DNA from: Synechococcales cyanobacterium M55_K2018_004
Lineage (GTDB): Bacteria; Cyanobacteriota; Cyanobacteriia; Elainellales; Elainellaceae
Direction of reading: 5' to 3'
DNA: 41,477 bases
NCBI GenBank assembly: GCA_015295905.1
Contig: DVEB01000345.1
Location: 1-41,477 of the forward strand
Shown: one piece after another, positions 24,017 to 26,046 of the stretch
How the letters are laid out: every line of letters starts with the position of its first letter
Position numbering within the stretch: position 1 is the first letter of the stretch
Made by a program: the position numbers and the translations under genes
Notes under the pieces: model-generated
The model's input: the letters and a program-made list of their open reading frames with translations, nothing else
Database searches by the model: none
Told to the model about the DNA's origin: nothing

Positions 24017-24472
24017 CTAGGCCAGGGTTGTGGCTCCGGCAAAATAGTCTTGCAGTTGGCGATCGTGGTCGTGGCTCAGCGTCCCTTGCGGAATTGCCGA
24101 GGGAGTGAAGGCTTGCACATCCAGAATTTCGCCTTTGTCCTTGATTTGAAAATTCCCCTTCACGGTTGCTTCAATTACAACACAGATGGAGTGGAAGCGG
24201 GGATCGCGCCCTGGCGAGGAATAGACCCCCACGAGTCGGCCCAAGTTGACCACTTCTAGGCCAGTCTCTTCTGCCAGTTCTCGCCGCACAGTTGTGGGAA
24301 TGTCTTCCCCCCAGTCCACTACGCCTCCGGGGAGTGACCAGCAGCCATTGTCTCGGCGCTTGACGAGAACGATGCGGCCATCGGGCAATACCGGAATAAT
24401 GCTAGTCCCGGTAATCGGGTGGCGAAAGATAATACCAAGGGCAGAGCGGACGTACTGCCAGAGACGAATCAT
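24017..24472 (-). CDS. Nudix hydrolase
   Basis: 151 aa. A complete Nudix box, GGVVDWGEDIPTTVRRELAEETGLEV, begins about residue 49, with the metal-binding Glu pair in RELAEETG. It hydrolyses a nucleoside diphosphate linked to some other group; the substrate cannot be read from sequence. The N-terminus contains a hydrophobic stretch (ALGIIFRHPITGTSIIPVL) that belongs to the fold rather than the membrane. It is a single gene on the minus strand, with the peroxiredoxin gene upstream on the same strand. Confidence 0.92.
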   Translation of the reverse strand: MIRLWQYVRSALGIIFRHPITGTSIIPVLPDGRIVLVKRRDNGCWSLPGGVVDWGEDIPTTVRRELAEETGLEVVNLGRLVGVYSSPGRDPRFHSICVVIEATVKGNFQIKDKGEILDVQAFTPSAIPQGTLSHDHDRQLQDYFAGATTLA

Positions 24473-24529: not shown

Positions 24530-25000
24530 CTAGGCAGTCAATGTTGCCAAATCTGCCAGGATTTGTGCCGCATGCTCTTCCGGCTTGACTTTTAAATAGA
24601 CCTTGGCGATCTTACCCTCTGGGTCAATCAGAAAGGTATGCCGACTGATGCCCATGTATTCCTTGCCCATAAATTTTTTGAGGCCGTAGCTGTCGTACTG
24701 GGTTGAGACTTGGGCATCGGCGTCGGTCAACAGCGTGAAGGGAAGATTGTATTTAGTGACAAACTTGGTGTGAGATTTGGCATCGTTGGTGTTGACCCCT
24801 AAAATGACAATTCCCTTCGCTTCGTAGTCTGCGAAGGCGTCGCGAAACCCACAGGCTTCCTTGGTGCAACCGGGGGTATCGTCCTTGGGGTAGAAGTAAA
24901 GCACCACCCACTTGCCGCGCAAGTCGGAGAGTGTGACAGGATTGCCGTTGCTATCGGGGAGGGTAAAATCAGGGGCGACATCGCCAGCGGTCAGTGCCAT
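24530..25000 (-). CDS. bcp: Peroxiredoxin Q / BCP
   Basis: 156 aa. A thiol peroxidase reducing hydrogen peroxide and organic hydroperoxides, recycled by thioredoxin. The peroxidatic Cys motif YPKDDTPGCTKEACGFRD (about 37-54) has both the catalytic Cys and the resolving Cys five residues later, the classic 1-Cys/atypical 2-Cys BCP arrangement. The N-terminus MALTAGDVAPDFTLPDSNGN is complete. It is divergent from the MOSC-ATL gene. Confidence 0.95.
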   Translation of the reverse strand: MALTAGDVAPDFTLPDSNGNPVTLSDLRGKWVVLYFYPKDDTPGCTKEACGFRDAFADYEAKGIVILGVNTNDAKSHTKFVTKYNLPFTLLTDADAQVSTQYDSYGLKKFMGKEYMGISRHTFLIDPEGKIAKVYLKVKPEEHAAQILADLATLTA

Positions 25001-25171
25001 GCTTGAACCTTTTACGAGGGGAATTGTATGGAGAGCAAAAATCGTCTTAGTTTAGCTCAGATTTTAGCTCACAGGATCAGGAGATCGAACCGGGGAGGGG
25101 GGCTTGGTTCTGTTTAGCGTGGTTCTTTAGAGATTACGCCCAAACGGAGCAGATCGGGAGGATGGCGTCTC

Positions 25172-25293: not shown

Positions 25294-26046
25294 ATGCGAG
25301 TTACGGCTCTGTTTATTAAGCGATCGCACGGTACTCCTGTTACCCCTGTGGAAGCAATTGTCCTTCAGCAGTCTTGGGGGATTGTGGGAGATGTCAGCGC
25401 CCAGGTCGGGAGTCCCCGACAGGTTTTGCTAGCAGGCACTGCATCGCTCGAGCGGTTTGGCTTAAGGGCAGGAGATTTGCAGGAGAATCTTTTGCTGGAG
25501 GGCGAGGTTGAGACGTTTCGTTCTGGGCAAGTGCTACAGATTGGGCGATCGGCGCAAATTCGGTTGACCTTTCGGTGTGAACCCTGTGCCTCGTTAGAGC
25601 GTCTCCAACCAGGGTTAACTCGGCGCATTCGTGGCAACCGGGGTATGCTGGCAATGGTTGTGCAAAGCGGTGACGTGGTCTGTGGAGCGGAGGTCAGGCC
25701 GCTGGCGATCGAGTTTCCAGCGATTCCTGAGGTCGTGCGGGAACGGTTTGCGGCGTTGGTTGCGCGTATTCCCCCAGGGCGTGTGGTGTCAACCCCCAAT
25801 CTGTTACTGGCTCTGGGAGTCACCCGGAGTTATGCGCGGGCTATCCCCACTTGGTTGAAGCAAGCATCTCCCGCGCTGCCTGTGCATCGCATTGTTGGCG
25901 CAGATGGCACGCTCCTAACCCGACATCTCCCTGACCAACAGCGGCAATTGCAAGCAGAAGGGGTGGTAATTGTGCAGGCCAAGGTGGCGATCGCCCATTA
26001 CTGGCCAGCCTCAGAGTTTTATGCTGAAGTCCCCCGCGCAACTTGA
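25294..26046 (+). CDS. MOSC domain fused to alkyltransferase-like (ATL) domain
   Basis: About 250 aa. Residues about 1-150 form a MOSC domain (GIVGDVSAQVGSPRQVLLA, LRAGDLQENLLL, FRCEPCASLERLQPGL, GNRGMLAMVV), a beta fold found in molybdenum-cofactor sulfur chemistry. Residues about 160-245 match the DNA-binding domain of O6-alkylguanine methyltransferases: LVARIPPGRVVSTPNLLLALGV, an SYARA helix with the Arg finger region, and PVHRIVGADG at 196-205. The catalytic Cys of PCHR is Val (V197), as in repair-signalling ATL proteins, which bind alkylated DNA without removing the alkyl group. The frame is open back to 25162, but MRVTALFIKRSHG is the MOSC start. MITE D2 begins on the next base after the stop. 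Confidence 0.85.
   Translation: MRVTALFIKRSHGTPVTPVEAIVLQQSWGIVGDVSAQVGSPRQVLLAGTASLERFGLRAGDLQENLLLEGEVETFRSGQVLQIGRSAQIRLTFRCEPCASLERLQPGLTRRIRGNRGMLAMVVQSGDVVCGAEVRPLAIEFPAIPEVVRERFAALVARIPPGRVVSTPNLLLALGVTRSYARAIPTWLKQASPALPVHRIVGADGTLLTRHLPDQQRQLQAEGVVIVQAKVAIAHYWPASEFYAEVPRAT

Follow-up and report, generated by a model that had tools for sequence, protein, structure and literature searches.

According to the available part of a review of the family (PMC10637980), molybdenum-dependent reduction of N-hydroxylated compounds has been seen with every MOSC protein assayed in vitro, and N-hydroxylated bases are detoxified by YiiM, YcbX and mARC; which substrates are the natural ones is debated, and the physiological substrates are treated there as an open question. 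The cavity of the MOSC core is completed by an extra element, namely a C-terminal bundle in YiiM, the long beta3-beta4 loop in YuaD and an additional barrel in mARC and YcbX, and the residues proposed to bind the molybdenum cofactor (Moco) in E. coli YiiM are R55, A56, N87, Q115, R117, S118 and the invariant C120 (PMC5818509). The fusion partners listed in the available text of the respective reviews are NifS, ferredoxin, FAD, 3-alpha, MoaB and XdhC for MOSC domains (PMC10637980), and endonuclease V and histone-like domains for alkyltransferases (PMC10779285).

The pairing of a MOSC domain with an alkyltransferase-like (ATL) or MGMT domain is named in neither review as far as that available text goes (PMC10637980, PMC10779285). 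We likewise found no description of MOSC together with an alkyltransferase or MGMT in the open-licence literature, an earlier mention elsewhere being possible. The architecture reported here, which a preliminary description of this DNA had already suspected to be uncharacterised, is thus apparently undescribed, albeit built from two known domains.

Results

The gene lies in a stretch of 41,477 nucleotides from Synechococcales cyanobacterium M55_K2018_004, the whole of which is called the window below. Translation of positions 25294 to 26046 of the forward strand gives a stop-free frame of 250 amino acids, in which a MOSC domain is followed by an ATL domain. Its features are as follows.

25294-26046, forward strand: MOSC-ATL fusion gene (open frame; full-length relatives; AlphaFold2 pLDDT 96.7, pTM 0.90)
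25294-25713, forward strand: MOSC domain, residues 1-140 (PF03473; YuaD 1oru, Z 19.8; YiiM 5yhh, Z 16.8; mARC1, Z 15.7)
25576-25587, forward strand: CEPC motif, residues 95-98 (C95, P97 and C98 invariant in 24/24; C98 aligns with the invariant MOSC cysteine, C120 of E. coli YiiM; PMC5818509)
25726-26016, forward strand: ATL domain, residues 145-241 (PF01035; S. pombe Atl1-DNA 3gx4, Z 12.4 over 93 aa; human AGT, Z 9.8; profile match, E 1.7e-11)
25783-25863, forward strand: helix-turn-helix (HTH) of the ATL domain, residues 164-190, from the alignment to Atl1 numbering (Arg finger R182 at 25837-25839; Thr167 in place of the base-flipping Tyr)
25879-25890, forward strand: PVHR motif, residues 196-199, PCHR in active alkyltransferases (H198 and R199 in 42/42; position 197 never C)

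Both domains of the fusion that the preliminary description had proposed exceed their Pfam cut-offs within this one frame: MOSC (PF03473) matches residues 56-135 with E 2e-7 and 31.4 bits against a cut-off of 22.7, and DNA_binding_1 (PF01035) matches residues 149-224 with E 1.2e-8 and 35.1 bits against a cut-off of 27. NCBIfam offered no model spanning the whole protein. A longer frame could begin at an in-frame ATG at 25162; the relatives start at 25294. GC content is similar in the MOSC half, the ATL half and the neighbouring genes.

Two circumstances had been named in advance as speaking against a genuine fusion, a frameshift joining two genes and the existence of separate genes in all close relatives, and neither applies. 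A local frameshift or chimeric assembly is ruled out by full-length relatives, which occur in 24 further genomes of the class at identities of 38-60% and in many named isolates and complete plasmids. As for separate genes, the sole two-frame case is a locus of a Herpetosiphon-like genome (L144, 1492-2276, in G673), in which an out-of-frame break falls at the MOSC/ATL linker, the second part is without a convincing start and two relatives are intact; we read it as a disrupted copy or a sequence error. The MOSC-ATL fusion gene is real and conserved.

When the proteins of 388 genomes of the class were searched, 25 genomes from four families, the present one included, gave matches of about 200 residues or more over both domains; this corresponds to approximately 24 further full-length fusions. 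Scanning 84,980 species with an alignment of fusion relatives yielded 73 loci, of which about 58 are full fusions. These occur in Leptolyngbya-type cyanobacteria, many Nostocales (on chromosomes as well as complete plasmids), Pleurocapsa-like forms, two Herpetosiphon and one Bacteroidota MAG. Since no further intact fusion was found in the sampled genomes of Chloroflexota (301), Bacteroidota (296), Alphaproteobacteria (240) and Gammaproteobacteria (228), the spread outside cyanobacteria is patchy. No phage homologue was found, and a single-sequence scan of the genome contigs gave no match. Plasmid records annotate the relatives, for example AVA_RS26275 of Trichormus variabilis ATCC 29413, as 'MGMT family protein' (also the RefSeq name) or 'hypothetical protein'.

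Turning to the MOSC half, its Pfam assignment agrees with Z scores of 14-20 to MOSC structures overall (VIA-align of the AlphaFold2 model), the YuaD match extending over 139 residues at 1.9 A. P41, R42, Q43, E64, N65, C95, P97, C98, R116 and G117 are invariant in all 24 relatives, which were retrieved without bias towards the CxPC motif; a second alignment rests on motif-based retrieval and therefore partly builds CxPC in. The residue-by-residue correspondence with the Moco pocket of YiiM (for instance E64 N65 with N87) was drawn by eye. The host genome contains MoaA and MoeA genes, and MoeA was present in 12 of the 13 tested carriers, the exception being a short-form carrier with a small MAG (G639), where none was detectable. 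From these data we infer that the MOSC half would bind Moco and carry out N-reduction. The protein does not conform to either larger MOSC type: MOSC_N (PF03476) gives no match and MOSC begins at residue 1, so that the extra barrel of mARC and YcbX is missing, and where YiiM has its 3-alpha domain, Pfam gives DNA_binding_1 and the region matches ATLs. Moreover, the beta3-beta4 loop, which completes the cavity in YuaD (PMC5818509), is short in the fusion, about 18 residues by eye compared with 22 in YiiM and 35 in YuaD, which would make the C-terminal half the natural candidate for the missing cavity wall. We also note that the second invariant cysteine creates a CxPC at the MOSC active site (window 25576-25587), a motif found in stand-alone small MOSC proteins of Chloroflexota as well; YiiM has Arg at this position.

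The C-terminal half has the C-terminal fold of AGT without the AGT N-terminal domain. Its closest solved structures are S. pombe Atl1 with DNA (residues 145-239; 2.1 A and 27% identity over the 93 aligned residues) and V. parahaemolyticus ATL (Z 12.0), followed by human AGT, and the profile that it matches is that of cyanobacterial MGMTs and ATLs. The loss of the PCHR cysteine, pointed out in the preliminary description for the PVHR of this protein, is general among the relatives: in an alignment of 42 relatives the position of Atl1 W56, V197 here, is occupied by V, I or L, rarely by T or K, and never by C or W, so that the acceptor cysteine, mostly replaced by Trp in ATLs, occurs in 0/42 and alkyl transfer to the usual cysteine is excluded by sequence. 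The claim that the DNA-binding helix is kept proved correct in part. The Arg finger (Atl1 R39, here R182) is found in 42/42, while the base-flipping Tyr (Atl1 Y25) is T167 in this protein and the RAVG of alkyltransferases reads R-A-I-P. Among the relatives, Tyr is present in 29/42 and Thr or Ser in the remaining 13/42, which are Leptolyngbya-type sequences. It is because of this Thr167 that we speak of an ATL-derived half and do not class it as an ATL.

H198 and R199 (Atl1 H57 and R58) and the catalytic Glu, E222, are each found in 42/42, and the pocket shell of the ATL half is evidently under constraint. Conversely, DNA base flipping may be lost: the clade of the window has Thr for the Tyr, Pro stands in 42/42 where Atl1 has its minor-groove Gly (G42, here P185), and Atl1 R69 (R210) is variable among the relatives; on sequence grounds, base flipping thus seems plausible for the Nostoc type and doubtful for the Leptolyngbya type of the window. 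The HTH carries a net charge per 40 aa of +4.3 in the fusion versus +2.7 in cyanobacterial MGMTs, which is weakly compatible with nucleic-acid binding.

AlphaFold2, run with the 42 relatives, places both halves in a definite mutual position (the pLDDT given above being a mean), and a rigid two-domain structure is therefore predicted.

Short forms of about 200 aa exist in Bradyrhizobium, some Gammaproteobacteria, Poribacteria, Argonema and a Shapirobacteria MAG. Their MOSC domain is like that of the fusion and is followed by a C-terminus of about 60 aa that has the HTH signature IGL-SYxRAxPxxLxK and lacks the wing and PxHR, i.e. the lesion pocket. This HTH matches that of the fusions with E 4e-9; against the MGMT/ATL profile alone the short-form C-terminus scored no better than column shuffles, so that its link to ATLs rests on the fused intermediates. 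Comparison with solved structures returned no alkyltransferase for it, a result from which no absence should be concluded. A tree of the MOSC part joins the short forms, as sister clade, to the Nostoc-type fusions and leaves the Leptolyngbya-type fusions outside (split 100/99; the outgroup is long and weakly placed). The simplest reading is a single fusion event, after which the short clade lost its lesion pocket. MOSC plus HTH would then be the part kept longest, an argument against a protein whose main task is to flag lesions.

A search of 27 cyanobacterial genomes showed that, besides the fusion, almost every carrier possesses MGMT and a stand-alone ATL. The present genome (99.98% complete) has a stand-alone ATL with PWHR (L001, 1429-1755) and the fusion only; a canonical MGMT with PCHR was not found in it, and the same holds, judged by score, for one other genome (G131). 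The genome has one more MOSC gene, with MOSC_N-MOSC architecture (L111; C207). No neighbour gene is conserved across clades, synteny being a clade-level matter, and none of the neighbours names a substrate or an electron donor. Peroxiredoxin genes (AhpC/TSA, Bcp/PrxQ-type) adjoin both MOSC genes of the genome (window 24530-25000, reverse strand; L111 366-938, forward strand), and one is also found beside three other cyanobacterial copies and, in another orientation, beside three gammaproteobacterial short forms (L095, L096, L101); peroxiredoxins being common, we regard this as a lead only. NUDIX-type genes occur near the fusion in two separate clades, at window 24017-24472 (reverse strand; recognized by eye) and in Nostocales (L046, L081, L090, L100; by Pfam), which possibly reflects a link to the nucleotide pool, or chance. 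In one Nostoc locus (L056, 7317-7976) and 19 others, the fusion is preceded on its strand by a PAP_fibrillin gene whose end is about 20-30 bases away, and the two genes probably form one transcript in that Nostoc clade. Finally, plasmid A of Trichormus variabilis ATCC 29413 carries an IscB gene two genes upstream of its fusion (L166, 2629-3912).

Discussion

The explanation that we prefer, with a rough probability of one in three, is that the fusion is a Moco-dependent N-reductase by way of its MOSC half, with an ATL-derived, non-alkyltransferase half that would both bind nucleic acid and wall the cofactor cavity. Moco would sit in the MOSC cavity beside C98, and the ATL-derived HTH would form the outer wall of this cavity in place of the C-terminal helical bundle of YiiM. 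The basic face of the HTH and the Arg finger would bind DNA (or a nucleotide), an N-hydroxylated base (N6-hydroxyadenine or N4-hydroxycytosine, for instance) would be turned out, and Moco would reduce it to the normal base. Electrons would come from a partner, perhaps ferredoxin or a flavin reductase, which we propose because the fusion is without an electron-transfer domain. This model is consistent with the conserved Moco-cavity residues and the Moco-synthesis genes of the host, with the retention of the HTH even in the clade without a lesion pocket, with the ATL fold being nearest to DNA-bound Atl1, with the invariance of R182, H198, R199 and E222 in a half that has no acceptor cysteine, and with the more basic HTH. 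Since the MOSC core needs a cavity-completing element (PMC5818509), the ATL half is the only candidate for it in the fusion. Speaking against the model are the altered Tyr, minor-groove Gly and R69, with which base flipping may have gone, the short-form carrier without detectable MoeA and the want of a conserved neighbour that would name substrate or donor. That the protein is a molybdoenzyme doing direct-reversal DNA repair, whose ATL-derived head flips N-hydroxylated bases for reduction by the fused MOSC-Moco centre, we consider rather unlikely.

Nearly as likely as the preferred explanation, and just as tentative, is that the ATL-derived domain is a structural wall of the Moco cavity and nothing else, comparable to the YiiM bundle, and that the enzyme would act on a small N-hydroxylated substrate with no DNA contact. 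The same need of the MOSC core, for which only the ATL half is at hand (PMC5818509), would be satisfied in this way, the sister clade retains the HTH without the PxHR wing, the Tyr, the minor-groove Gly and R69 are altered, and the predicted structure is rigid (pTM 0.90). What a mere wall would not require, however, is the strict invariance (42/42) of the exposed Arg finger R182 and of the pocket residues H198, R199 and E222, nor a basic HTH or a Tyr kept in 29/42.

Less likely than either is a nucleotide-pool or RNA sanitiser, in which the ATL-derived pocket would hold a free N-hydroxylated nucleoside, nucleotide or RNA base for the MOSC half and DNA would not be the substrate. YiiM and YcbX do act on free base analogues, and the NUDIX and peroxiredoxin genes near several members provide a weak lead; however, these neighbours are not conserved across clades and nucleotide binding by the pocket is purely putative.

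Slightly less likely again is a damage sensor of the ATL type, which would bind O6-alkylguanine in DNA and bring in UvrA to start nucleotide excision repair (NER), with MOSC modulating this or adding a second repair chemistry. The absent acceptor cysteine, the structural proximity of the half to ATLs, not MGMTs, and the lack of a canonical MGMT in this genome would all suit it. Yet carriers also have a stand-alone ATL, and mostly MGMT too, which means that plain NER flagging is not the best reading; furthermore, the classical-ATL Trp is V/I, the Tyr is gone in this clade, R69 is variable and the pocket is deleted in the sister clade. The suggestion of NER flagging in the preliminary description therefore found no support. 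In MOS, sulfur transfer derives from an added NifS domain. The other functional suggestion made there, sulfur or persulfide chemistry, likewise went unsupported, though neither of the two was refuted. That a persulfide on the CEPC cysteines would serve to report or repair alkylated DNA is very improbable, for despite the second invariant cysteine (CxxC) no cysteine desulfurase partner or domain was seen, NifS included, CxPC is shared with stand-alone small MOSC proteins, and the known in vitro activity of MOSC proteins is, in the available part of the review, Mo-dependent N-reduction (PMC10637980).

The present annotation as an 'MGMT family protein', i.e. as DNA repair, conceals the MOSC half. 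The fusion of MOSC to a DNA-lesion-reader domain brings up nucleic acid as a possible MOSC substrate, a question approachable with one protein of 250 residues. If the DNA-acting reading were true, no earlier molybdenum enzyme with DNA as its substrate would be known to us; should the structural role alone be true, a DNA-repair domain would have been recruited to build a cofactor pocket.

With YiiM of E. coli and G. stearothermophilus, the fusion shares the MOSC core (Z 14-17), the invariant cysteine, the aligned Moco-pocket residues and a small helical C-terminal partner, which is however a three-helix bundle in YiiM and an ATL-type HTH plus wing here, with CxPC instead of RSPC and an activity that is putative. 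YuaD, representing the small MOSC-only proteins, is the best structural match of the MOSC half, but has no C-terminal domain and possesses the long beta3-beta4 loop. mARC and YcbX belong to the same MOSC family and have known N-reductase activity; they differ by an N-terminal MOSC_N barrel, to which YcbX adds a ferredoxin domain, and a separate gene of this kind exists in the present genome (the L111 gene). The ATLs of S. pombe (Atl1) and V. parahaemolyticus have in common with the fusion the fold (Z 12), the absence of the acceptor cysteine, the Arg finger, the SYAR motif and HR plus Glu, whereas in the fusion Trp is replaced by Val, Tyr by Thr (in this clade) and the recognition-helix Gly by Pro, R69 is variable and MOSC is the partner. 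A parallel in design is offered by the archaeal AGT/ATL-endonuclease V fusions, in which, as far as the available part of the review describes them, AGT/ATL is likewise joined to a second domain that possibly acts on the same DNA, the partner there being a nuclease and not a molybdenum-enzyme domain (PMC10779285).
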